64,000 bases of DNA from Malus domestica. Lineage: Eukaryota > Streptophyta > Magnoliopsida > Rosales > Rosaceae. The position numbers were made by a program, and so were the translations under genes. Where the stretch lies: the NCBI RefSeq assembly GCF_042453785.1, contig NC_091674.1, positions 28,717,501-28,781,500 on the forward strand. Reading direction: 5' to 3'. The notes beneath the pieces were generated by a model, which saw only the letters and a program-made list of their open reading frames with translations, was not told the origin of the DNA and ran no database searches. Below, one piece after another: positions 2,161 through 43,465 of the stretch. The stretch's first letter is position 1, and each line of letters opens with the position of its first letter.

Positions 2161-6200
<4,040 letters not shown>

Positions 6201-7352
6201 TTTGAAGAACTGTATATATACATCACCGGTGGCTTGTCGAAGCCTGTAAGTACAATTTTGTGTACTAAACTGTGTACTTTATCAGGTAGTTGACACTCTA
6301 ACGACTCGGGCATTTATAGAGATGGATCCTTTCGTAGTCACGGTACTGTGTTTACAGGAGAATCCGAGGATGTTCTTAGTCAGGTTACGATTTAGTTCGA
6401 GGTAGACGAGAATGCTTTGATCACATATATACTCTCAGGAATACAAACAGGGAACTTCTCTAAAAGTTATAATAATTGTAGCCTGTGTGATTTGCTCAAC
6501 AGGCTGAGCTCAGGAGAGGATCCAAATCCTAATTTTCCTGCATGACATTATATGACTGGTTTGATATATCGTGACTTTGCGTCCTGAGTGGATCTGTGTA
6601 TGCAAGTTGTTTTCTCTTTCAACGTGACCTCTGGTTTTCTACTTCTGCCTAATTGTGGTTGACCTTTGACTTTAATTTAATTAAATTCCTGCCTAAGTTA
6701 AAGGTCGGAGGCTACAAAGTCTGTTAAGGTTCCACACAATGTGTAGACTCCTGAGATTCGGCCACTTCGCCTAATTCAAACAAATATTGGTTGTTAATCA
6801 CCATGGGGTGGCCCATTGGTTGGCGGATTTCAGACTCGTATTTCATTAAGTTCGATTCTTGTATTTCACAAGGCACGCTTTGAGTTCAATCTGGTGTTTG
6901 TGAATCATAAGACAGTGGCTAATAGAGAATGAAATGCCTCTGTGAGTCTTTCCGACCTTAGAAGAATGGACTGTCGTGACGAAATCACCAGTTAGTCTCT
7001 TTTTAAATAAAAAAAATGAAAAATATAGCGGTTACTTGCCAGAAAGAAGAAAATACTCGTCAACACATGCACGACTATTTCTAATATTTCCCTCCGATAT
7101 AGCCAGTCAACCGTCCTTTGTAGAATTAACACTCATATTTGAGTAATGTTAGAATCAATCGTTCACTAAATTATCGATTTACTTGATCTAATAAAATTTT
7201 CTGTTTATTCTCATAAGGACCAAAGGATACCAAAAAAAAAAAAGTAATAATGTCACACTGTCTGAGACAACAGGAAAGTAAAAACATGAGGTGAAAAGAA
7301 GAAATTCAATGAATCACTTGTGCTCCTGCAGCTGCAAGAAAATCTCCACATC
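6201..7352. other. Gene-free spacer downstream of the pseudogene and UGD
   Basis: Mixed AT-rich sequence between the helicase fragment and the stop codon of UGD. The UGD 3' untranslated region should occupy roughly the last 200 bases. No frame, inverted repeat or RNA-like structure was evident. Confidence 0.5.
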
Positions 7353-8795
7353 TTATGCCACAGCAGGCATGTCCTTGAGCCAAGAATCCAACGGCTTTCC
7401 GATCGAATACACGATGAATCCGATCTCTCTCAGCTTCCCAGCATCAACCACATTCCTCCCATCGAACAAAAATGCAGGCTTCTGCATGCTGTCGTAAATC
7501 TTCTTGTAATCGAGTGTCTTGAACTCGTCCCACTCGGTGAGAATGCAGATCCCATGAGCGCCCTTTGCTGCCTCGTAAGCGTCCCAAGCGACCCTCACTT
7601 CCTTGGCCGCGGCAGGGCTCATTGGCTGCAGATGAAGTGGATGGTCCCAATCAAACTTCTTCATCGAAAGATCCCTCCGAATCTGTTCCTCAGTAACCTG
7701 CAGATCATATATGCTCAAGTGCGCCTTGTCCCCCAACAGCCCGTTGCAAACATCAATGGCAGCGGTCTCCCTTGTGTCCCCGGTGTCTTTCTTGAATGCG
7801 AATCCAAGAATCGCAATCTTTTTACCCGAAACAGTGTTGAACATCGAAGAGACAACCCTGTTCACGAAGCGGCTCTTTTGGTAGTCGTTCACCTTGATCA
7901 CTTGTTTCCAATAGTCTGCAACTTCAGGGAGGCCATTGCATTCACAGATGTAGACCAAGTTGAGAATGTCCTTCTGAAAGCAAGACCCGCCAAATCCAAC
8001 GCTGGCATTGAGAAATTTCGGTCCAATTCTGGTGTCCTTGCCAACAGCATGGGAAACTTCAGAGATATTCGCTCCGGTGGCCTCACAGAGAGCTGACATT
8101 GCATTCACAGACGAGATCCTCTGCGCCAGGAAGGCGTTCGCGGCGAGCTTTGATAGCTCAGCTGACCACAGATTGGTTGTTATGATTCTGTCTTCCGGAA
8201 CCCAATTCGCGTACACTGCCTTCAATGCCTGGATTGCCTTCTGGCCATCCGGGGTTTCCCTCCCTCCAATCAACACGCGGTCGGGCTTGAAAAGATCCTC
8301 AATTGCTGTCCCCTCGGCAAGAAACTCCGGGTTGGAGAGAATCTGGTACTTGATTCCCTTGCTATTATGTGCCAAAATCTTTTCAATCGCCTCGGCGGTT
8401 TTCACCGGGACAGTTGATTTCTCGACAACAATCTTGTCGGATTTTGAAACATCAGCGATCATTCGGGCTGCGCTTTCCCAGTATGTCAAGTCAGCAGCCT
8501 TGCCGGCTCCAAGACCCCTGGTTTTCGTTGGGGTGTTAACTGAAACGAAGATAATGTCCGCCTCAGCGACATGTTTTTCGACAGCAGTGCTGAAGAAGAG
8601 GTTCTTTCCTCTGCATTGCTTCACAATCTCATCAAGACCTGGCTCATAAATGGGGAGCTGGTCGCTGTTCCAGGCCGCGATTCTGGGCACGGAGATGTCC
8701 ACCACCGCCACTTCGATGGCAGGGCACTTCAGGGCAATCACTGCCATTGTTGGACCCCCAACATAGCCAGCTCCAATGCAGCAGATCTTCACCAT
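7353..8795 (-). CDS. UGD: UDP-glucose 6-dehydrogenase
   Basis: The enzyme oxidises UDP-glucose to UDP-glucuronate in the cytosol with two NAD+, feeding pectin and hemicellulose precursors (UDP-xylose, -arabinose, -galacturonate). The 480-residue product has the usual plant length. Visible marks are an N-terminal Rossmann motif (GAGYVGGPT, about residues 8-16), [10 protein letters not shown], the catalytic-cysteine motif [10 protein letters not shown] (about 268-277), the second nucleotide-binding domain [17 protein letters not shown], and FDGRN near the end. I chose the ATG at 8795. An upstream in-frame ATG at 8825 lies before a splice acceptor (CTTCTAACAG) ending just before the start, so it is probably intronic. 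The coding part is a single exon, as in other plant UGDs. The frame is intact and expected to work. Confidence 0.97.
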
Positions 8796-25716: not shown

Positions 25717-25860
25717 TGCATCAATATTTCAGCTCAAATTTACTTAGACTTCTTTGTGCAACACCAGAACCATTTCCTCGATCCAACAATCTCCGGACCA
25801 TCATTTCCTCCAAGCGATCACGTATTAATTTGGTCCGCCGTTGACTAAACCGACTCTGAA

Positions 25861-27978
25861 ATGATCATCGGCTTGAATCAGCTGCCTGTCGGGTTTAGGT
25901 TTATGCCAACAGACGAAGAGTTGGTCACTCATTATCTGATGAACAAGGTGTTGTATCGGCCTGTACCAGCTGCTCAGGAAATTCGGGAGATCGATGCGGC
26001 TCGATTCTACAGCAACCATCCTAAGAATCTAGGTATGTATTTATTTATGATCGTCATTGGTTCTTTTAGAATTAACAGTTTTGTTAGCCAAAGTTTATTT
26101 TCCACTACCGGTCTCAAGTCTGGATGCATTCTGTTCGTAGGTCGAATCCCTATATTAGCGAAGTGTGTGTGTATATATACGATTGACATAATATATGTTC
26201 TTAGACATGTTATAAGATCCGATCAGATCCATGAGTTATATGTTGATCGAGGTAACTTAGCGATTGACAATTGATGAAGTTAAGCTTAATTAGAACAAAT
26301 TTTAGATTACATGTTGAGAATCTCACGTCGAAAAAAATACAAAAGAGCATATGAACAAACAAAACAAAGAAAGGAATTTTTTGGAGAAAAATAGGTAGGA
26401 CTTAGTTTTTGGAAAATATAAGTTCGCATATATATATACCACGTGTATATGAAATGAAATGCTTTAAATGTAAAAAAATAAAATACAAACTGGACGATTT
26501 TTTTTTTTCCATTTGAAAAAAATGCACGAAAAGTTAACTTATCTGAATGTGATGGACAACTTCGAGTATATATTTTCAACTTTTTAAAATTTAATGCCAT
26601 ATTTTAGTTACTTTGAGTTATGTAGCACCCTTTTTAACTATGTATATGAAATATGTAGCACCAAATCATAACCATAGCGAAAGCAAATTGAAAAAACTTA
26701 ACTCCTTGCGTGCATGCTTGCTTGGCTCTAAAGTGATGCTAGAGAGACCAAATTTTTTAAATTTAATTTAAAAGAGTTCAACTATTAATCGTCACATCAT
26801 GTGATTTACAAAAGATAATCTAAAAATTTGGTCTCTATAACATTTTCCCGCACTGTATATTTCGATCAAATGTCATGCATTGAAGATATCTGTAGATTAA
26901 ACCCTAGTTATCTATGTTCGAGTAGTATTTTTCTTTTCCTTTTTTCGAGGTTTCAAGTCAACTTTTATAATTTATATGGACCAGTATATAATTTTGTATC
27001 TTCTTACTTGCATGCATGCAGTGACGTTCTCCTGCGGGGAGAGAGAGTGGTTTTTCTTCATCCATCAAGGTGAAAGCAGTTATGCATCCCAAACCAGAAG
27101 CAGTATTCGAGTAGTTGGAAATGGTTTAGGGTTTTGGAAACCCAAGTACGGATCAGAAACTCCCATCTGCGATGAGGATGGACATTTCTTTGCCTCCAAG
27201 ATCTCTCTCACTTACTTCTCGGGAAGAAGTGCTTCGCATGCAAAGAGAACACATTGGAAAATGGTGGAGTACTACTTACATGAACATGATCACGTCGAGT
27301 CTAACACAGAAGAAAAGTACCAAGGTAAAAGACGAAATACAACCATACTCTACTTTCATGGGGCACTGCAATGAATATGACTTATTTTGGTAAAAAATAA
27401 AGCCTATTTATTTTATTATATTTTATACTAGTGGCGGATGTACATTGTGACCAACGTGGTCAGGATCATATGGAGTTCATGAAATATACATGTGAAGGTC
27501 TTCCGATGACCTTTGAATATTTGGTATGTGTGCTCGCCAAGTGTTTGATGTAATCCTTGCTCAACAGCATGTTGCGTTAAGAGCACTTGACAAATTATCG
27601 ATAGCACTCATCAGATTGTTTTGGCATATGTCGACTGCACAACATGGTTCGGTTGACAACAACAAGCACACTAAGTGCTCAACGAAATGCCTAACCGAAT
27701 AACATCATTGTAGTTTCAATGAAATTCTCAAATTTACTAGTAAGTGCATTAAAGATGTAGTCATCGATTCGCCCAAAAGGCCACAACTACCGCAAAATAA
27801 AAAAATTCATAATCATCCTATTAAGATCGACCTAAACCAGCTCATTAGAATTAGTTGCTTATTATTGTTACAAGTAATTTCATAGCTCATACTAATTCTA
27901 CTACTTTTGGATGCAGTGCGGAGAAGAGAGTGGGTATTGAGCCGAATGATAAGAGGAACGGATTACACTGGATTTTGA
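25861..27978 (+). CDS. Short NAC-domain transcription factor-like protein
   Basis: Exons 25861-26032, 27022-27324 and 27917-27978 join in phase to give 178 residues. Subdomain A reads LPVGFRFMPTDEELVTHYL (relatives usually have PGFRFHPT). The second exon holds EREWFFFIHQG, GFWKPKYGSE and HWKMVEYYLHE, matching NAC DNA-binding subdomains C and D. The third ends RREWVLSRMIRGTDYTGF, matching subdomain E. The protein stops right after the NAC domain, so there is no activation domain; the factor could bind DNA or dimerise without activating. It may be a regulator of full-length NACs or a decaying copy. The frame is open and splice sites are good. An alternative exon at 27432-27522 is possible. I do not assign a subfamily. 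Confidence 0.7.
26743..26836. repeat. 94-bp inverted-repeat element in NAC intron 1
   Basis: AGAGACCAAATTTTT at 26743-26757 is matched in reverse by AAAAATTTGGTCTCT at 26822-26836. It is a short MITE-like unit within the first intron. Target duplication not resolved. Confidence 0.55.
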
Positions 27979-32019: not shown

Positions 32020-32465
32020 GCCGAGGATCCTCCGTCGTCATCGCAACGGCAGCCAAAGAAGAAATGGGGAGGAGAACCGAAGAAGAAACAAGGAGAGACT
32101 GAGGGAGAAGGTGAGTTGCAGAGAAGAGATAGGGGGAGAACCGAAGAAGAAACAAGGAGAGACTGAGGGAGAAGGATGGAGAAGGATCGATCGAGAGACT
32201 GAGGGTGGAGCGCGGCCATGAGGACGAGATGGTGATGGTGATGTTCCTCACGTAGGGAGATGAGTGCGTGCGTGCTGCGGTGCAGAGAAGAGAGATGAGG
32301 GAGATATGAGAGAGAGAGCCGAGAGGGAGACAGAAGAAAACAGAAAAGAAAACAGAAAGAAGAAGAAAAGAGGAAAGGAGTCACGGGGGAATAGAGAGAG
32401 AAAAGAGAAGAGTGGAGAGGGGGCTGCCACGTGGCCACTTCAGAAAGAAAGGGATCCAATGTTTT
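32020..32465. other. Purine-rich, partly duplicated arm of the outer element
   Basis: A GA-rich stretch with a 60-65-bp tandem duplication ('gagaaccgaagaagaaacaa' near 32070 and 32136). The minus strand reads as a long open frame of serine/leucine/phenylalanine, but this is a by-product of the purine run. It could be a captured promoter or leader; I make no gene call. Confidence 0.4.
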
Positions 32466-33530
32466 TGTGAACACGGAAAATTCCTGAAACGAAAGAGACA
32501 AAAACAACGTGCACAAACAAATATTATGTATTTGATGATTTTGGGTTACAATCTCTCTCTAATTTGATCCTCTGATTCGATCTCCGTAAGGTGTTGATTG
32601 GTGGGTGTTTCGTTGATCCAAGGGCCGTCGAGGCTTAATCTTGGATGAACAGTTGGAAGTTTCTTCAAAGGGCCGTGGGCTTTATCTTTGCAGGTGGATT
32701 TGAGCGGATCTTCAAGGAGCCGTTGGGGCTTGATCTTGAGTAACGGTGATGAACGGATCTTCAAGGGCTTTTGGGCTTGATCTTGAAGAAACAGTGATGA
32801 ACAGATCTTCAAGGACTTTTGGGCTTAATCTTGAAGAACGGTTGGATGTGTGTGGATTTGTCGACGTTGTTGATCCAAAGGGCCGTTGGGGCTTGATCTT
32901 GGATGAACGGATGATGAACGATGGTGCTTTCTTCAAGGGCCGTCGGGGCTTGATCTTGGAAGAACGATGAACGAAGAACGAAGAACACTTTCTTCAAGGG
33001 CCGTCGGGGTTTGATCTTGAATTGGTGGATGATTGTTGATCCAAAGGGCCGTTGGGGCTTGATCTTGGATGAACGATGAACGAAGAACGAAGAACACTTT
33101 CTTCAAGGGCCGTCGGGGCTTGATCTTGAATTGGTGGATGATTGTTGATCCAAATGGCCGTTGGGGCTTGATCTTAGGATGAACGATGAACGAATAGCGC
33201 TTTCTTGATTCTTCGGGAACCTGGATGCTTGAGAGCTTCGGAGTTTCAGAGCTTCAGAGCTTCAAGAGTTTTGCCTAATAATTTTGGTTCCTCCAAATGA
33301 ATGAAATTGGCTTCATTTATAGAATTTTCCAAGGCCTAATTTTGAATATAATATTCCAGATGAAATAAGTCGTTTCTGCCAGGTGTTGACACGTGTCCTA
33401 TTTGATGACTTTTCCAACTCATTTCAATTTTCGTTGAGTCACACGCTACGTGTAAAATTTATGTAATACATGAGCGTTGACACTTTGATTTATCGATCAA
33501 CATTTATATACCGAAATTTCGATGTCTACA
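32466..33530 (-). repeat. 3' LTR of the retroelement
   Basis: About 1,065 bp, nearly identical to 41476-42541. Plus-strand ends are TGTGAACACGG and ...GATGTCTACA, giving the TG...CA form. More than half of it is built of a degenerate 30-40 base motif, 'caagggccgtcggggcttga' plus 'tcttgaa', in about a dozen copies. Confidence 0.93.
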
Positions 33531-33589
33531 AATGCCCCCACTTCAAGGCACGTCGTATACATGTGCTTGTCACGTGTAGGAGATGCGTT

Positions 33590-34090
33590 TTGAAGTCCCT
33601 TACTGTAGATGTCGATCCAAGGGCCGTTGAGGCTTGATCTTGAATTGGGCTGGAGATTATTCAAGGGCCGTTGAGGCTTGATCTTGAATTGGGCTTGAGA
33701 TTTCTTCAAGGGCCGTTGAGGCTTGTTCTTGAACTTTTGTTTGAAATTTCTTCAAGGGCCGTCGAGACTTGATCTTGAAGGTTGAAATTGGACCACAAAG
33801 AGCTTCATGTGGTAGATGATCTTTGGCTTTGGTAGTGGGTGAATCGGCACGTATTTTGTTGCGCTTGTTGACTTTCCACAGCTTTGATCTTGAACTGGGT
33901 TGAAGGATTTTCTGGATTCCTTCAATTGTTGATTTTCCACAGCTTATTCTTGAACTAGGTTTTGATTCAAGGGTGGTAGACATTTAATCTTGAATCGGAC
34001 TTGTGATTTCTTCCAGGGCCGTCGAGGCTTGATTTTGAATTCGGCTGGAAGCTTCTTCAAGGGCCGTTGGGGCTTGATTCTTGAAGGCTG
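33590..34090. repeat. Minisatellite continuing inside the retroelement
   Basis: The LTR motif 'caagggccgt(t/c)gaggctt' plus 'gatcttgaa' recurs about seven more times at irregular spacing, just inside the 3' LTR. The array therefore spans LTR and internal DNA. Confidence 0.8.
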
Positions 34091-34279
34091 ACTCGAACAC
34101 ATGGCAAGCAGGCACGAGGTGAAGGTGACGACTTGTTGCTTTGTTCAATCTTTCTAATTCACACATGAGCAGTTTGGTCAACGGTATGATCTTCAAGATT
34201 GATGGGCTCTTCTTCCAGTTGGTGACTTGGTCTTTAAGGATTTGATTCAAGGGTGGTGAATCGGCACGTGCAGCCCACA

Positions 34280-35060
34280 ACGCCTAGTAAGTCGACCCAA
34301 GAATTTGAGGGTCAAAACGAGTTCACCGTCCTCAGGCAGATGCGGCATCTTCTCGAGTTCTTCACCTCAGACTCTTTCTGCTGAGTTGACTGTGCATGCT
34401 GCATTCTTCTCTGCTTGTTTCTTCAGGCAGATGTGGCAGCTTCTCGAGTTCCTCAGTTCGGACTCCTTCTGCTGAGTTGACCGTGCAGACCGCATTCTTC
34501 TCTGCTTGTTCCTTCTGCACCTTGTCTCCACATGCTGCAAGGTATCATTTTCACTTGCCTTATCTGTCCTCCAGGCAGATGTGGCAGCTTCTTTGAAAGT
34601 ACAGCAGCAGTGGAAGGCGAGTACTCGAGAGCAGTGCTAGGCAGGCAATCAGGGAAGGGTTCCAAGCAGTCGGTTCCTTACCCGAGTTTGAGTGGAAGTT
34701 CCGGCATATTGTTTTCTTTATCCTTGTCTTTGTAGGTAAGAACAAGGACAAAGGAAATGATAGGGAGAACGCATGATATGAGATACTCTTGCTTTCTACC
34801 CTGGTGATATGAGATACTTTTGCTTTTGAAGTCATTGGCTTGCAGAGGTACCCCAACGAATAAGGAACACTGAATGACTCGAGATGTTTCGTTGGGAAAG
34901 CATTTTTGGAGATAAAGAAAGGCTCTGTATGTCTGTCTTGCTACGGAAGGTGAAGGTGGACAGTTATAGGAGGTCCCTTAATACCTGTAGAGGTACTATT
35001 CTTTCACTTGTGTCGGCAACTAACGCGTGATTGAACAGTAAACTTTCACGTGCTTTCTCC
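34280..35060. other. Internal retroelement sequence without recognised coding
   Basis: Includes imperfect repeats of 'caggcagatg(c/t)ggca' plus 'gcttctcgagttc' at 34335, 34423 and 34563. No polymerase motif was seen on either strand. Confidence 0.5.
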
Positions 35061-35072
35061 CTCACCGAAAAT

Positions 35073-35464
35073 CTTCGACAAATTGCCCATGATTTGCGCA
35101 AAGTTGAGTGTGCATATGACAGGTGATGACGCGGCTGAAAAAGACTGGCGCCTCTTCGATATCTGGGATCGGCGCTTCGACAAATTACCCGTGATTTCCA
35201 CAAAGCTGAGTTTGCATGTGATGGGTGCCGACGTGGCTGAAAAAGACTGGCGCCTCTTCGATATTTGGGATCGGCGCTTCGACAAATTGCCCGTGATTTT
35301 CGCAAAGCTGAGTTTGCGTGTGACGGGTGCCGTCGCGTCTGGAAAAGCAAGATGCTTCTCTTCGATATTTGGGATCGGCGCTTCGACAAATTGCCCGTGA
35401 TTTCCGCAAAGCTGAGTTTGCGTGTGACGGGTGCCGACGCGTCTGGAAAAGCAAGATGCTTTTC
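35073..35464 (+). repeat. Four tandem ~102-bp repeats upstream of the antisense frame
   Basis: Units begin 'cttcgacaaatt(g/a)cccgtga' at 35073, 35175, 35277 and 35381. Each contains 'gcaaagctgagtttgcgtgtg' variants and 'cctcttcgatatttgggatc'. The first two and last two units form subtypes (GCTGAAAAAGACTGG versus TCTGGAAAAGCAAG). They stand 200-600 bases before the ATG at 35676, where a promoter for the antisense frame would be. Confidence 0.9.
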
Positions 35465-35675
35465 CGATTTCTGAGCTTGCCTCTTCGATTTTTGAATGGC
35501 CTCTTCGAATTCTGAGCTCGCCTCTTCGATCTCTGAAATCTCGTCGAGTGCTGATTTTTTATAGAGGCATGCAGTTCTTTTCAAAGCACACTTGAATTTT
35601 CGCTTGTGAAAACTCCCCTCTTGTACTTCTAAGATCTTGATTTGTCCGATCTCTTCTTCCTTCAACACTTTGAAA

Positions 35676-36290
35676 ATGTCTGGACCCTCCGACCGTCGTT
35701 TTGACTTGAATCTTGGTGAAGAGGCAGTCCCGCCTTCTCTAGACAACATATGGCGCCCATCCTTCATATCCCCCACTGGTCCTCTTACCGTTGGGGATTC
35801 GGTGGTGAAGAATGATATGACCGCTGCGGTGGTGGCCCGGAACCTTGTCACTCCCAGAGATAACAGACTACTTTCCAAACGGTCGGATGAGTTGGCTGTT
35901 AAGGATTCTCTGGCTCTCAGTGTGCAGTGTGCAGGTTCTGTGTCTAATATGGCTCAACGCCTGTTTGCTCGAACCCGTCAAGTTGAATCGTTGGCGGCTG
36001 AAGTGATGAGTCTCAAACAGGAGATTAGAGGGCTCAAGCAGGAGAATAAACAGTTGCATAAGCTCGCACACAGCTATGCGACAAACATGAAGAGGAAGAA
36101 GACCAGATGCAGGAATCTGATGGTCAGATTTTACTTGATCATCAGAGGTTTGTGGGTTTGTTCCAGCAGCATTTGCCTTCGTCTTCTGGGGCTCTGCCGA
36201 CTGCTGAGGCTTCAAATAGTCAACCTCCGGTGCCTCCTCTTCCTGGAGCTCCGCCGAGTTGTGAGGCACCACCTGATCGTCCTTGAAGAT
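35676..36290 (+). pseudogene. Antisense extra reading frame of the retroelement
   Basis: Lies opposite in sense to gag, between the host-fragment block and the 3' LTR. It begins MSGPSDRRFDLNLGEEAVPP and has a heptad-rich segment (QVESLAAEVMSLKQEIRGLK) likely to form a coiled coil. I recall similar proteins annotated many times in apple-type genomes, always repeat-associated. Some plant Ty3/Gypsy lineages (Tat group) are known to carry antisense extra frames at this position; function is unknown. A TATA-like TTTTTTATAGAGG lies near 35556. This copy looks broken toward its end. Confidence 0.6.
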
Positions 36291-36299
36291 CCCCTCTTG

Positions 36300-36615
36300 T
36301 AAAATTGATTTGATTTGATTTGATTTTTTTTTATTATTATTATTTTTTTAAGGTATGTATAATGCAAATTTATGTAAAATTTTCAGAAAAATAAATAAAA
36401 CGGACTTTATTTCTCTCGATGCATTTGTTTTGTTTTTGTTTTTTTTTTTTGTTTTTTTGTTTTTTTGTTTTTTTTTTTGCTGTAATCATATATATTATGT
36501 ACACACACACATACATACATGTTAATTTTTTCACATGGACTGATTCACCATTCCAAAACCTTTTCCCCTTCTTTTTTTTTTTGCATGGTGCTAGCCACCA
36601 AGGATTCACTTACTT

Positions 36616-36665
<50 letters not shown>

Positions 36666-36960
36666 TTTCTTTTTCTGCACATGGTCTTTTTTTTTTTTAA
36701 ATTTATTTATTTATTATATATATATATATATATATTTTTTTTTTTTTAATTTTCTTTGCACATGGTGCCTGAAGCACTACCTTTGCTTTTCCCTTTTCTT
36801 TTTTATTTTTTATTTTATTTTTTTATTTTTATTTTTTGCTTTCGGTGCCCGTGCACCATGTCTCTTATTTTCCTTTTTTTATATTGTGATTTTTATATGC
36901 ACATATACATACATACGTACATACATATACATACATACATACATATATATATATATAGGA
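36300..36960. repeat. Low-complexity T, TA and CATA tracts
   Basis: T runs at 36420-36480, pure TA at about 36619-36662 and again near 36715-36735, T-rich sequence at 36790-36840, and CATA units at 36900-36950. They separate the antisense frame from the captured gene pieces. No coding value. Confidence 0.85.
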
Positions 36961-37029
36961 TGCGAGATAGGATGGAGAGAAGGCAGGGAGGAGCCTGGTG
37001 GATGAATATGGTGGCTTTGTGGCTGCGGA

Positions 37030-37196
37030 GGATTGCATGGGCGGCCATGGAAGAGCGAGGCCCTGTCGGTGCAGCTCCGTGAAGAACGCCCTGCCCCAAC
37101 ACTCGATGCTACGCTCGCCGTGCACATGATGTTCCCTCTCACGCCGCCATCCCGCGGACGTTGACTGCCATGAGCTTGTCGTAGTTTGGAGAGGGA
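37030..37196 (-). pseudogene. Captured fragment: short-chain dehydrogenase/reductase
   Basis: Minus-strand peptides NYDKLMAVNVRGMAA and RGNIMCTASVASSVG match consecutive parts of plant SDR enzymes of the momilactone-synthase/xanthoxin-dehydrogenase-like group (VN.RG.A...KHAAR, then G.I.CTASVA). About 15 residues expected between them are missing, so it is an internally deleted exon piece. The cofactor motif and catalytic YxxxK are absent. Sequence to about 36965 may belong to it but is not recognisable. Confidence 0.6.
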
Positions 37197-37201
37197 GGTG
37201 G

Positions 37202-37243
37202 ACGAAACGGGAAATTGTTCGGCGACCGATTGGCGAGGAGTGG
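37202..37243 (-). repeat. 42-bp duplicate of part of the bZIP fragment
   Basis: Identical to 37944-37985, within the captured bZIP piece (encoding QSVAEQFPVSF there). Here it abuts the SDR piece. Confidence 0.95.
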
Positions 37244-37267
37244 AAGATTAATCTGGGAAGCAGCAAT

Positions 37268-37316
37268 TTTTTTTTTTTTTTTTTTTTTTTTAATTTTTTT
37301 TTTTTGCAGCTGGACC
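37268..37316. repeat. Poly-T tract (poly-A on the minus strand)
   Basis: Nearly 40 T residues with one small break. Read on the minus strand it is an A run directly after the EH-domain piece, which could be an imprint of RNA-mediated capture or simple slippage. Confidence 0.8.
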
Positions 37317-37317
37317 G

Positions 37318-37625
37318 TATAGTGCCGCCTTGACAATAATCGGAGTCAAATCTCTCTTACTCTGTGCAACAGTCACAAGTCTGAGTGCATTATAAAATTC
37401 TGGCCGACCAAGAAAACCAGTTTTGTTCTGATCAGCATGCATCCATATCTGAGCAACAACTGGTTTGGGCAAATTGGAACCCTGGAAGAAAGCTACGGCT
37501 TCAGCTCCGCTGATCCTGCCATCTCCATCCAAATCTGCTTTCCTAAAGCAGGCTTCCAGCTGATCCGCATACGGACCCGCCATTTTCCTCCGATCTCACA
37601 CCAGATCACCACCACACAGAAAGAA
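37318..37625 (-). pseudogene. Captured fragment: first exon of an EH-domain (EPS15-like) gene
   Basis: From the ATG at 37583 the minus strand reads one EH domain: ACFRKADLDGDGRISGAEAV (EF-hand loop DLDGDGRISGAE), then VAQIWMHADQNKTGFLGRPE and RLVTVAQSKRDLTP. It matches the N-terminus of plant EPS15-like endocytic adaptors, which bind NPF motifs at clathrin sites. About 40 bases of plausible leader precede the ATG. It stops after about 90 residues at ALYGPAA; the other EH domain, coiled coil and tail are absent. Confidence 0.85.
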
Positions 37626-37699
37626 ACGATGGCAAGTCGAATCGAATGCGTGGGAACCAGAGGTTGGTACTTGCAGGCTGGATCGAAGAGATGACCGAG

Positions 37700-38115
37700 A
37701 GAGAGTAGTCTGCTGCGCAAGCCAGATCGAGCTGGTTCTTAAGAAATTCGCGGTACTGGTCTGAGTTAATCGGAGCCGTAGGAGCTGGATCCAACGCCGC
37801 CGGCGGAGGATGATTGAGCTGCTGAGGAGGTTGCAGTTGACGATGGCGATGACGATCGGGCTTCTTGATCTCAACTACCTCTTCGTCCACATCGTCGTGC
37901 TTTGACGTCGACGACTGAGACGCGACGGAGCAGGAAGCGGCGAACGAAACGGGAAATTGTTCGGCGACCGATTGGCGAGGAGTGGCGGCCGGGGTCGTGA
38001 ACTCGTCGAGGAACTGCTCGAAGGCCCACTCCGACGTGCTCCGGTTCATCTCCGCCGGCGACGACAGAGCCCAAAACGTGTCGGATGAGTCGTCCGCGGT
38101 GAACACTGAATGCAT
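37700..38115 (-). pseudogene. Captured fragment: CPRF2-type bZIP factor, N-terminal exon
   Basis: Minus-strand frame from the ATG at 38115: HSVFTADDSSDTFWA, NRSTSEWAFEQFLDEF, then NSDQYREFLKNQLDLACAA. These blocks are the conserved N-terminal motifs of plant group C bZIPs (bZIP63/CPRF2/Opaque-2 relatives). The piece ends at the usual exon 1 border, after which the reading continues into unrelated residues. The basic region and leucine zipper are missing, so it cannot bind DNA. Confidence 0.8.
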
Positions 38116-38264
38116 ACTCTGTGCGGGCGTGAATGTCCGAAATATCCAATTTTTGGTTGGCTGCCGAAAGAGAAGGAAGACGACGAGATCGAAATCTGCA
38201 GCAGCGAAGAAGAAGACATTTTTTGGATTTTGAAGAATCGCAGAAAGTGTTGGATACTACTGTA

Positions 38265-38450
38265 CTGGTTAGCTCTCCAATTCGCTTTGGGATTGGACTG
38301 GTGACGGAGTTCTGGTACAAGTACAGGTTCTGCAGCTTACTGCAGTTTCCAACTTCTTCAGGGATTGGACCGGATAGCAGAGATGTGTACAAGGCTACGG
38401 TTTGGAGTCTTTTGAGCATTCCAATTGATGAGGTCCAGGTCGTGGGTCGG
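38265..38450 (-). pseudogene. Captured fragment: LRR receptor-like kinase ectodomain
   Basis: The minus strand reads SSIGMLKRLQTVALYTSLLS, GPIPEEVGNCSKLQNLYLYQ and PIPKRIGEL, two and a half leucine-rich repeats. They match the RGI/RCH1-type receptor kinases that perceive root meristem growth factor peptides. Only about 60 residues are present, without signal peptide, transmembrane segment or kinase. Confidence 0.8.
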
Positions 38451-39100
38451 TTCGACGCCGTCATCGAACCCGTCGGAGAAAGTAGCGAATGATAAGCCTT
38501 GGAGGGAAGGGAAGGATTTGATTTGGGTGAGGTCGCGGTCGTTGCAGCGACAGGTCTGTGGAGCGTATGGCAGAGGTTGCTGCTGAGCTGTAGTTGCGTC
38601 GCGGGGGAAGATGAGGGCTGACGAGAGAAGACGAGAGCAGATCTACCATTTTCTCTGAAGCTTTGCAATCTATTTGATCCCAGCACCTTTGAACCCTAAT
38701 CCTGAACCTTTGCATCTGAAGGCTTTGTGGAGCTCCGACCGAGAGAAGACGAGAGTAGGCGGCGGAACGGTGGAGAAGGAAGGACGATCGTCGAGACCAT
38801 CGATTCGCTCGGTTTCACATTCCCCGCAGCCATTTTAGCAGAGAGAGTGAGACTTGTGAGGATGGGCTTTGAGAGCTGGGCCCGGTTTTGTAATTGGTGG
38901 ACAAGGAAGGAGATGGGCCTGGTTTGATTTGGGTTTCTTCTTCTTGGAGCTGGATTTGGACAACAGGCTTTGGGCTTGGCCAACCTCCTTTTGATGGGCT
39001 TATTGCTGCTAGATAGAAGACATATATATATATATAAGGAATTTTTTTTTAAATACATAAACATATGTATTCATTTTTTTTTAATAAAATTGACTTTCTT
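38451..39100. other. Further GC-rich captured sequence, source unknown
   Basis: GC-rich and exon-like, unlike the AT-rich surroundings. The minus strand has MAAGNVKPSESMVST starting near 38832, which looks like a genuine N-terminus, but I cannot name the gene. It ends near a TA run at 39024-39038. At least one more host fragment is likely here. Confidence 0.4.
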
Positions 39101-39446
39101 TAATAAAACATTTATTTATATTTTGATGTGACTGAACTCGAAATTTTGAATGCTCGAGCTGCCTATGTACCCTTCCAAAGAAAGAGATCAAGTCAAAACG
39201 TAGTTCCAATACATACATATTTTTTGGTATTTTCTTTTTTTTTTGTGCCGTTTGCAGTTTCAGCTCGTGCAGACCAGGCGCGTTGTGCCATGCAGTTTAG
39301 GCTCGTGCAGGCGAGGAGCTTTGGTTCGTGCAGTTTAGGCTCGTGCGAACAAGGAGCATTGTGCCATGCAGTTTAGACTCGTGCGGGCGGGGAGTCTTGT
39401 GTCTTGCAGTTTAGGCTCTTGCAGACAAGGAGCTTTGGTGAATTTG

Positions 39447-41396
39447 TCAAGCAATTTTGGAGAGGCGTTCCTCACAATCTTCATAACAAGGAGCCTTGAC
39501 CGAGTGATTGAAGAAGTCTTCGGGCAAGAAATCACGCATCGTGATGGGGATGGACGATCTATATGTCGAAATTTCATCATCTTCAACACGTTCACGTTGC
39601 TTTGAAGGTTGACAAGAGCTGCTTTGCCCCATTTCCGATTGGCGGACTTGTGGAGGAGACGTATGCTTCTTGTGCAATTTCTTAGGAATGACTTGAGTCC
39701 ATCCTTCAATTTTGCTTGTCTTGGACGATGCCCCCAGCGGTTGAGGTGAAAACTTTGAGTCGGAAGAGCCAGAAGTGAAGGTGGTATAATTTGACTTCGC
39801 CACTTCGTCAAGATCTAGCTCGATGATTCCTTTCTGAGCTAGCTTTATGATGAGATCTTTCAGGATGAAACATTTTTCTGTCGGATGACTAATGAAGCGG
39901 TGGAATTTACAGTACCTTGGACTGTCGGTGCGATTCATCTCTTCCGGCCGTCTGCACTCAGGCAAGTCGATCACCTTCTTTTCCAGCAAGTCTTCTAACA
40001 TGGCAACCACATCAGAGTTGGGGAATGGATAAGTTTTCTCCTCCAGCTCCTTCAAAGTGCGTCTACGCATCTCTTGATCACGAAAAGCTTCGGTTTGAAT
40101 CGCCTTGCCTCGTGTGGAGATTTTGACGGGAGCTGTGTTGACCGTCATCGCTTCCTTGGTGGGTTTCCATGCGGCCTTTTCCACCTTTGTCCCAAGAACT
40201 TTGTCGTTCTTGTAGTCGGCGATCGGTTATTTCTTCCCATGATGGGCGATGCTCAACTCCATGTCATGGGCGCGAGTAGCCAATTCCTCGAAGGTCCGCA
40301 TTTTAATGCCTTGAAGGATGTATTGCAAACCCCATTGCATGCCTTGGATGCACATCTCGATTGAAGAAATCTCGGAGAGTCTATCCTTACAGTCGAGGCT
40401 TAGATTACGCCATCGGTTGATGTAGTCTATGACTGGTTCTTCCTTCCATTGCTTCGTGCTCGTCAGCTCTAGCATGCTCACAGTGCGGCGGGTGCTATAG
40501 AAGCGGTTGAGGAATTCCCGCTCTAATTGCTCCCAGCTGTTGATGGACTCGGGCTCTAGGTCTGTGTACCACTCAAAGGCGTTTCCTTTCAGTGAGCGCA
40601 CAAACTGCTTGGCGAGGTAATCCCCTTCGGTTCCTGCGTTGTTGCAAGTTTCAACGAAGTGGGCAACGTGCTGCTTTGGGTTTCCTTTTCCATCAAACTG
40701 CATGAACTTTGGTGGTTGATAACCCCTTGGCATCCTTAGGGCATCAATCTTCTTGGAATAGGGCTTCGAGTAGAACAAGGAGGTATGTGAGCTCCCTTCG
40801 TACTGTGCCTTGATGGTGTTGGTGATCATCTCCTGCAGCTGCTGGATAGAAAGAGATCCCATGAGTGCCGCTGCTTGGTCTGGCTCCGGCTTCCCATCGA
40901 TTTTCTTCACCGGGGGTTCTTCGTCTCCACCAGCTCCTCCCTTTAGTGGATCATCCTCTGGGTCGGGTTTATCGCCGTCATGCACCTCCAGTTGGTTGAC
41001 TAGTGCTGCAATCTGCAAGTCTTTTTCTTCCACAGTTCGGGTTAGCCTTGCGATTGCTTCATTCATTTGAGCCAGCTGCTCATCGATTGAAGTTGCTCCA
41101 ATGGTCATGACTTGCATGGCTAAACTGTCGCTTGAATCGGCATCAGAGAGCATGGATTCGGAGTATTTCCTTGGGCTTTCCCCCCTTGGTGCCCTTAGTG
41201 AGGCTAAGGTGATCAAAGGCTCGTGCCTTGAGTGTTTTTGTTCCCTTGGCAGAGTTGATGCAGAGGTGAAAGAGGCGGCAGAAGTAGCTCTTGCCATGCT
41301 TCGAGTCGTGATGCCCAAAGTGACACCAGTTGCGACGAGGACGCTTTTGTTCTTTGCGCTGGTTGCGGGAACAGTTTGAACCTTCCTTGATGCCAT
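39447..41396 (-). pseudogene. Retroelement gag region
   Basis: The main part (41396-40227) has an N-terminal low-complexity region, a coiled-coil stretch (ATSIDEQLAQMNEAIARLTR) and the retrotransposon gag core: QHVAHFVETCNNAG, QFVRSLKGNAFEWYTDL and WEQLEREFLNRF. Farther downstream (to 39447) is a Cys/His segment YCKFHRFISHPTEKCFILKD typical of gag C-termini in this lineage. The region is broken at least once. No pol domains follow. Confidence 0.85.
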
Positions 41397-41475
41397 TAAT
41401 TTTGGAAGTGCGCTTGAATTTCTTGAACGGAGAAAGAGATGAAAGGCAGAGATTGTCCCACTGGGCGTGCCAATT

Positions 41476-42541
41476 TGTGAACACGGAAAATTCCTGAAAC
41501 GAAAGAGACAAGAACAACGTGCACAAACAAATATTATGTATTTGATGATTTTGGGTTACAATCTCTCTCTAATTTGATCCTCTGATTCGATCTCCGTAAG
41601 GTGTTGATTGGTGGGTGTTTCGTTGATCCAAGGGCCGTCGAGGCTTAATCTTGGATGAACAGTTGGAAGTTTCTTCAAAGGGCCGTGGGCTTTATCTTTG
41701 CAGGTGGATTTGAGCGGATCTTCAAGGAGCCGTTGGGGCTTGATCTTGAGTAACGGTGATGAACGGATCTTCAAGGGCTTTTGGGCTTGATCTTGAAGAA
41801 ACAGTGATGAACAGATCTTCAAGGACTTTTGGGCTTAATCTTGAAGAACGGTTGGATGTGTGTGGATTTGTCGACGTTGTTGATCCAAAGGGCCGTTGGG
41901 GCTTGATCTTGGATGAACGGATGATGAACAATGGTGCTTTCTTCAAGGGTCGTCGGGGCTTGATCTTGGAAGAACGATGAACGAAGAACGAAGAACACTT
42001 TCTTCAAGGGCCGTCGGGGCTTGATCTTGAATTGGTGGATGATTGTTGATCCAAAGGGCCTTTGGGGCTTGATCTTGGATGAACGATGAACGAAGAACGA
42101 AGAACACTTTCTTCAAGGGCCGTCGGGGCTTGATCTTGAATTGGTGGATGATTGTTGATCCAAAGGGCCGTTGGGGCTTGATCTTAGGATGAACGATGAA
42201 CGAATAACGCTTTCTTGATTATTCGGGAACCTGGATGCTTGAGAGCTTCGGAGTTTCAGAGCTTCAGAGCTTCAAGAGTTTTGCCTAATGATTTTGGTTC
42301 CTCCAAATGAATGAAATTGGCTTCTATTTATAGAATTTTCCAAGGCCTAATTTTGAATATAATATTCCAGATGAAATAAGTCGTTTCTGCCAGGTGTTGA
42401 CACGTGTCCTATTTGATGACTTTTCCAACTCATTTCAATTTTCGTTGAGTCACACGCTACGTGTAAAATTTATGTAATACATGAGCGTTGACACTTTGAT
42501 TTATCGGTCAACATTTATTTACCGAAATTTCGATGTCTACG
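41476..42541 (-). repeat. 5' LTR of the retroelement
   Basis: Partner of 32466-33530, about 99% identical. GGATCC sits exactly at its outer edge (42541-42546), and the same hexamer lies 8 bases beyond the other LTR (32452-32457). This may be a displaced remnant of the target duplication; no clean 5-bp duplication was seen. Confidence 0.92.
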
Positions 42542-42546
42542 GATCC

Positions 42547-43465
42547 TGATTGGGTAGTCAAAGAGGACCAATTTGATTTATTAAAATGTTTAGGGGATAA
42601 TTACACAAATATATCTTTATAAATGGGGGTGGGTGTTACATATTGCCCTAAAAAATTCCAAGTAATTACAACATCGTATTAGAATTGTAATTGATCCTTG
42701 TTAGATTTGGTTTAGAAATTCTATGTAATTTAGTGATTGTTTCATATTAGGTTTAGATTTGAATTTTTTACTCCATTCAGATTTTAAAGGATTATAATAG
42801 ATTTAAAAATTTATGAATTTTGATGAAGTTTAATAATTTTTAAAACTTTTATGTAAAATTTTAAGTTAATTCCCTCAAATTTTCAGGGAGCGATTTGAGA
42901 ATGTTTAAAATATTATGTGAAATATTTCTAATTTTTTCGAGTTTCCCAACTTTTTAAAAATCTCTTCGAATCAATTTCTAAATGAATACATTTGGAATGT
43001 ATGAATTTCTTAAAAATCATGATCGAATACCCCTTAAACTTTAAAGAATCACTTGAAATCCTGATTAAATGCCCTTAGATTTTTAAGGAGAATTAAAATG
43101 TTTATAAGCCCCAATTGGATGTACCGTTTAATTTAACTAATTAACACAACACAACAAAACCAATTAAGATTACAAATTAACACAAAAGATGACTTGATGC
43201 GAGGTCATATCTAAAAAACTTGCCGCAATAAGCCCCAATTGGTGTGTTTAAACTTCTTTCATTAATTACCACATATTTTCTACACTCACAATGTTTGTCA
43301 GCTCGCTATATAATCAACTTGATAATGTTAAATCCATCATGCAATGCATTTCCTTCCAATTTTTTGTGATAAACTAATTATTAATTGACTAAATAAACAT
43401 CCTGCAAAGTTTCAATAAAAATTTCCAAGTTTTTCTTACAATTTCCGTGGTTTCCATGTAATTTT
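42547..43465. other. Right arm of the outer element
   Basis: AT-rich, non-coding. 42700-43080 resembles the MITE at 24075-24505 in reverse ('gatcgaatacccctta', 'aatcctgattaaatgccctta'). No gene. Confidence 0.4.

Follow-up and report, generated by a model that had tools for sequence, protein, structure and literature searches.

An apple LTR retrotransposon family with a position-fixed bay of changing host gene pieces, probably filled from spliced mRNAs

A 64,000-nucleotide stretch of the apple (Malus domestica) genome, here called the window, contains a young, gypsy-type long terminal repeat (LTR) retrotransposon on the minus strand (positions 32466 to 42540, oriented right to left) whose interior is a mosaic of host gene pieces. 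The mosaic fills a cargo bay of approximately 2.1 kb (36960 to 39040, minus strand) with (TA)n on both edges, as seen from the sequence and from comparison with the parent genes. Analysis of this copy and 20 relatives indicates that the family, Tat-type and Retand-like, very probably acquires its cargo by template switching to spliced host mRNAs that are packaged along with the element RNA and, in addition, exchanges cargo between elements. Transduction by retroelements is already known; a bay that is fixed in position, holds several genes and changes its content within one family appears to be new. An earlier note, made from the window sequence, had placed parts of an SDR enzyme, an EH-domain protein, a bZIP factor and an RGI-type receptor kinase between gag and an antisense frame. 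All four are present, and their parents were located. The proposal of the same note that the LTR element itself captured several genes gained support from the separate parents, the spliced joints, the sense orientation of the pieces and the constant bay in relatives.

Parents were sought in the same genome, a 651-Mb assembly in 19 contigs (C numbers), in which the window is C14:28717501-28781500; L numbers denote loci. The four parents lie at separate places on C6 (EH), C5 (bZIP), C11 (RGI-type kinase) and C6 (SDR), with 86 to 99% identity to the cargo, and the two on C6 are 30 Mb apart. Since each piece has a parent elsewhere in the same genome, the host gene matches are not due to chance. 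All four identified pieces are on the minus strand, in the same sense as gag, as the earlier note had read them. Following the element from its gag side, the kinase piece (38271 to 38433, minus) is 96.9% identical to its parent at C11:3.21 Mb (L038) and 90.5% identical to a second locus on C3 (L040); its best PDB match was At4g26540 (5hyx). The bZIP piece, a leader with the N terminus (37696 to 38164, minus), matches its parent at C5:32.74 Mb (L013) with 97.7% identity over 470 columns, compared to 88% for a second locus on C10, and the downstream exon of the parent carries bZIP_1 (E=7.2e-11). The names RGI for the kinase and group C for the bZIP factor are our presumption. The EH-domain piece (37240 to 37704, minus) comprises leader and coding start, joined from three parental stretches. 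It scored E=1.7e-9 for PF12763 and E=1.4e-36 for its best PDB match, 6yeu, and is 96 to 99% identical to the parent at C6:0.82 Mb (L035, with a tandem paralog, L042) in three long stretches and 91% identical over the last 32 bp. Against a prokaryote collection, it found six distant loci at 32 to 40% identity. The SDR piece (37060 to 37198, minus) has lost about 30 nt internally and lies within a 3' module; it matches C6:31.28 Mb (L049, adh_short E=3.3e-47, plus a tandem copy) in two stretches of 52 and 84 columns, with 96% and 86% identity, respectively. Neither the bZIP nor the SDR fragment gave a usable domain match of its own, and a PDB search did not identify the SDR fragment; their identity comes from the parents, L049 in the case of SDR.

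Best and second matches fell into the pairs C5/C10, C3/C11, C6/C14, C13/C16 and C4/C12, which we take to agree with the homeologous pairs of apple. In the pairs seen, the parents are closer to the cargo than the second loci, except for one 42-bp exon of the gene captured in L026, and the captures would therefore postdate the genome duplication.

Spliced host exons inside an LTR element are a mark of the Bs1 type, and they were found in the window (EH) and in three relatives (L020, L026 and L033). In total, the cargo passes over 16 stretches of parental DNA in five parents: two in EH, eight in L026, two in each of two genes in L033, and two in REF. Twelve of the 16 skipped stretches have canonical GT-AG ends, ten of them with 24/24 flanking bases, one with 22/24 and one, in EH, read by eye. 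The clearest case is L026, in which 782 bp of cargo represent nine stretches of a single AMP-binding gene spread over 11 kb of C6. Seven of its eight skips are GT-AG with 24/24 flanking bases and the eighth joint is changed, while the first 316 bp of this cargo match C11 at 99%. Of the two skips in EH, the second has exact GT...AG ends, with one base differing nearby, and the first combines an exact GT donor with GG on the acceptor side in both tandem parents. Matches to the L033 cargo lie in five or more places (C2, C8 or C7, C10, C4 and C3). One of the two skips in its C4 gene is exact; in its C10 gene, one is GT-AG with 22/24 (a non-canonical split scores 23) and the other is without canonical ends. 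L020 holds three C13 stretches of REF, preceded by pieces matching C2, C12 and C17, and both REF skips are exact GT-AG although this cargo is antisense. Partners that match contiguously, for example at C11, C2, C12 and C17, are taken as probable parents on the basis of place and second matches.

These joins bear on the order of events. Most identified cargo is in sense, and introns in it could have been spliced from element RNA, which would suit capture of genomic host DNA first and loss of introns later. For REF this route is excluded, because cargo that is antisense in the element is joined at both places at exact REF-sense GT-AG sites, which cannot be spliced from element RNA; the template was already spliced. 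For L026, a gene of about 11 kb would have had to be captured. Later splicing is therefore very improbable as a general explanation. The suggestion of the earlier note that promoter-proximal or first-exon DNA had been captured was not supported where it was tested, since EH joins three parental stretches and L026 nine; the leaders fit a reading of mRNA up to its 5' end. Its proposed comparison of parent loci, breakpoints and introns thus came out in favor of separate parents and predominantly GT-AG skips (12/16).

Matches to the block belong to a family. From 47 listed genome matches to the window block, 20 places of approximately 10 kb each were fetched, and all 20 proved to be copies of the same LTR element family, which bears on the search for further copies suggested in the earlier note. 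Both bay edges were located in 20 of the 21 copies, window included (the edge in L016 was set by hand; L021 is without the edge on the side of the antisense open reading frame [ORF]), and the position of the bay is constant there. Its size is 2.0 to 3.6 kb in the other 19 copies with both edges. Two outer modules are shared within the family. The 5' module (38534 to 39036, minus) is common wholly or partly to 13 of the 20 other copies at 87 to 98% identity, and the 3' module (36731 to 37204, minus) is common to seven (L016, L027 and L029 to L033) at 88 to 95%. Among the matches listed, the point at which a copy leaves these modules varies, and so does the cargo that follows.

To describe this cargo, stop-to-stop frames of at least 60 amino acids (aa) were surveyed in 15 copies, over the 23,500 bases of their unique cargo (edges set by eye), leaving out L019, L023, L029, L031 and L032 as near-duplicates. 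The 107 sense frames matched at least 25 Pfam families at E<=1e-4, which reduce, as judged by eye, to approximately 12 host genes: LRR in L016, WD40 and DUF1191 in L020, Helicase_C and aspartyl protease in L021, AMP-binding in L026, WWE/PARP in L027, Microtub_bd (presumably kinesin-like) in L017, MIP and PTR2 in L033, and, in the sense cargo of the 15 copies taken together, Myb_DNA-bind_4 and MBF1. The 93 antisense frames yielded one host gene, REF (252 aa, E=3.2e-82), in L020. This bias of 12 to 1 has a one-sided binomial probability of 0.002; the LRR gene counted here is the one also present in the window. The matches listed for the cargo frames of the 15 copies include no transposase or reverse transcriptase family, and no Pfam family could be assigned to the cargo of L015, L022, L024, L025, L028 and L030. 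In a search with the L021 cargo, matches to a common repeat predominated and no parent could be traced exon by exon; query bases 1592 to 1943 are a very common repeat at the end, and the whole query had 1272 first-look candidates. In L024, at 5806 to 7653, gag-side stretches of opposite orientation face each other head to head, which suggests that this copy was inverted or self-primed.

Common outer modules around a variable middle resemble the ends of a gene-capturing DNA transposon, and the genes could have been taken by a Helitron or Pack-MULE that lies inside the LTR element, an alternative that the earlier note had named together with the Helitron ends or Mutator tips that should betray it. 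A crude scan of 36201 to 39400 on both strands found no CTRR-T with an upstream hairpin, and no ungapped inverted repeat of at least 40 bases bounds the block, AT repeats excepted. Both modules occur together in just 2 of the 21 copies, the window and L016, and neither occurs in L015. In addition, the joins are spliced, and the cargo keeps a constant place in the element wherever both edges were located. We regard nesting as even less probable than later splicing.

The joints themselves fit copying between templates. At the two window joints measured, the flanking parents share exact bases: seven from bZIP to EH and four from EH to bZIP. Among 20,000 random joints of the parent loci, the mean was 0.68 shared bases, and four or more were shared in 1.8%. 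An EH and bZIP joint recurs on C10 (L015; 97.7% over window positions 37280 to 38179), the joint of the 5' module to the kinase piece recurs in L016, and the outer pieces, too, are found again at further loci. Because of this recurrence, an assembly chimera, for which nothing was found, has a negligible chance of being the explanation. One stretch of the 3' module is joined at nearly the same base to four contexts among eight copies compared. Cargo and backbone are also discordant. Compared to the window, the antisense ORF of L017 is 74% identical and its 5' module 98.9%; the corresponding values are 73% and 98.2% for L026, and in L033 the antisense ORF is 75% and the 3' module 95% identical. 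This discordance would be best explained by exchange between co-packaged RNAs, although selection on the module may play a part.

Spliced pieces, short matches at joints and insertion in either orientation would also be expected from filler DNA, taken from stray cDNA or retrocopies when breaks in integrated elements are repaired. This explanation leaves unaccounted the sense bias, the same bay in many copies, the single 3'-module joint with different partners and the exchange of cargo between backbones. It is the least improbable of the alternatives considered, and still improbable.

In the mechanism that we favor, template switching onto spliced host mRNAs, the interval that separates the antisense ORF from pol, or from gag in copies without pol, would act as the cargo bay. 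Inside the virus-like particle, the reverse transcriptase would break off from the element RNA within this interval where short stretches of sequence match, copy parts of one or more co-packaged spliced host mRNAs, often in several jumps, and then return to the element RNA. The resulting chimera would integrate and could be recopied, with later rounds replacing or extending its cargo. Elements of different subfamilies packaged together would swap cargo by ordinary retroviral-type recombination, and pol-bearing copies would supply enzymes to pol-less ones. Short or broken frames are common in the cargo, which is therefore expected to be mainly neutral for the host, possibly with small RNAs.

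Several points weigh against this interpretation. Four of the 16 skipped stretches have no canonical ends in the reference parent, and the tally covers skipped stretches only, so that contiguous cargo may contain unspliced introns. Shared bases were measured at two joints only, and the bZIP-EH joint holds a few bases from neither parent. The 5' module contains promoter-like words and no parent was found for it, making a DNA origin possible for that part. The copies were chosen by their match to the window block rather than at random, so that wholly different cargo was missed. Possible LTRs, as a distant repeat pair, were found in only 9 of the 21 stretches (93.9 to 99.4% identity, some partial), and the window copy has no target-site duplication (flanks GTTTT and GGATC). 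GGATCC occurs at the right edge of the element (42541 to 42560) and 8 bp off its left edge (32440 to 32465).

Pol-bearing relatives exist. Long frames were scanned for pol domains in seven loci, and RVT_1, RNase H and RVT_3 were present in three (L017, L026 and L032), in frames ending 0.3 to 1.1 kb before the bay. L017 and L032 also have an integrase core, and L026 only the integrase zinc-binding domain. Gag was found in L020, L025 and L027 (frames of 702, 709 and 902 aa), while a 599-aa frame upstream in L033 had no match in the domain scan. The cargo of L030 and L031 is 96 to 98% identical to that of the pol-bearing L032. The element order is thus likely gag-pol-bay-antisense ORF-LTR, and the window copy and other gag-only copies look like relatives that lack pol. 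A second RNase H, RVT_3, marks the Tat group, and the arrangement of reverse transcriptase-RNase H and RVT_3 before integrase was found in L017 and L032. The other Tat/Retand mark, an antisense ORF and tandem repeats between pol and the 3' LTR, was found as well. TRP28 (PF04195) is reported for the antisense ORF in 97% of Retand clusters (PMC11963269). It was detected in none of 11 antisense ORFs here (window searched up to E=1, others up to E=0.1), and for this reason we call the family Retand-like, not Retand.

The window copy bears the marks of an LTR retrotransposon: paired LTRs, gag, a primer site and a polypurine site. Along the element, the order is LTR, primer site, gag, 38-bp repeats, host block, antisense ORF, 102-bp repeats, polypurine tract and LTR. 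The 5' LTR (41476 to 42540, minus) and the 3' LTR (32466 to 33530, minus) are 98.9% identical over 1067 columns, giving an insertion age of roughly 0.4 million years at the usual plant substitution rate of 1.3e-8. The 5' LTR is adjoined by a stretch resembling a primer-binding site (41455 to 41475, minus; read from the sequence), and the 3' LTR by a polypurine tract (33531 to 33550, minus), likewise read from the sequence. The gag frame (39447 to 41555, minus) opens within the 5' LTR and is divided by one in-frame stop into 442 and 259 aa; the 442-aa part matches PF03732 (E=7.7e-14), and no relative was found in a viral collection. Repeat scans placed the 38-bp tandem repeats downstream of gag at 39253 to 39437 and the 102-bp tandem repeats close to the 3' LTR at 35073 to 35451. 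Between the latter and the bay, the antisense ORF (35610 to 36302, plus strand) gave weak coiled-coil-type Pfam matches only. No pol was seen among frames of at least 100 aa or in the 10 frames scanned with Pfam.

Further pieces of the window mosaic, without an identified parent, lie at approximately 39036 to 38433, 38270 to 38165 and 37060 to 36960. The first includes the 5' module, in which several AGCCCA/GGCCCA words, which we take to be a promoter motif, and a CT-rich leader ahead of an ATG (38840 to 39010, minus) resemble a host promoter with first codons. A match at C4:5022894 (L043) was rejected as its parent, as it reads as another element copy. The stretch from 38540 to 38433 was considered as a single UGT75 piece and dropped; PDB, Pfam and NCBIfam returned nothing for it, and its motif end belongs to another piece seen in L036, L037 and L039. 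These three loci (C17, C14 and C5) hold another chimera, with an RGI-type kinase piece joined to a different 5' partner. At 38165 to 38270 (minus), a leader plus MSSSSLLQISISSSSFSFG resembles the start of another gene; no parent was found, although no search was aimed at this piece alone. A second, 47-bp copy of part of bZIP stands at 37197 to 37243 (minus; other copy at 37939 to 37985), and this identical stretch flanks the EH piece on both sides, as if the copying enzyme had visited the bZIP RNA twice. An A-rich run of about 39 bases (element sense, 37267 to 37305) has grown within the EH coding sequence at a site that reads AAAAATT in the parent; because of this position, it was discarded as a poly(A) tail. 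Outside the element, the window contains pieces of a NAC (NAM) transcription factor gene at 25849 to 27374, plus strand (PF02365, E=3.9e-9 and 1.3e-9).

Several known systems resemble this family in part. TR-GAG elements are short LTR elements having gag without pol, a possible parallel to the window copy, which has LTRs, gag and no pol among the frames scanned; three relatives have pol, and the copies examined carry cargo. Pack-MULEs and Helitrons collect fragments of multiple genes in multiple copies, are DNA based and keep introns. The apple family is likewise a multi-gene fragment collector; their ends were not found at the window block. In maize, the LTR element Bs1 contains parts of three host genes, all incomplete, that form a chimeric gene (PMC13317346). 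The apple family is like it in that an LTR element holds several host gene pieces, but Bs1 represents three transductions in one element, whereas the apple family has many copies, each with its own mosaic in one bay, and cargo exchange between subfamilies. In LTR-mediated retroposition, template switching joins an mRNA to an element at microsimilarities, and several switches are theoretically possible (PMC5408686); the apple elements differ in that each holds pieces of several genes, family-wide, with one piece antisense. The Retand lineage has a long region between POL and the 3' LTR, with antisense ORFs and tandem repeats, and some members are non-autonomous (PMC11963269). The apple family has both features in the corresponding region, yet its antisense ORFs are without TRP28 (0/11), and no mention of host-gene cargo was seen for Retand in PMC11963269. 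A survey of 425 gene-carrying LTR elements in maize found none with more than one standard nuclear gene under its conditions (PMC2774510), and a survey of rice and sorghum counts the genes captured (PMC3726574). In the open-access literature searched, we found no description of a family whose bay is fixed in place, holds several genes and changes its content.

In contrast to the maize survey, several multi-gene elements occur here within one family of one genome. With parents mostly 91 to 99% alike, the capture steps, that is, which mRNAs, joints and strand were involved and how frequently, become directly readable, and the family constitutes a natural record of gene shuffling by retroelements. 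It may supply new exon combinations and small RNAs against the parent genes. More tentatively, and with somewhat less than an even chance in our estimate, the spacer may be a built-in switching hot spot through which the family repeatedly samples the spliced transcriptome, swaps cargo between subfamilies and remakes multi-gene chimeras, whose transcription a captured, promoter-like 5' module might permit. If true, this would make the family an RNA-based counterpart of Pack-MULEs.

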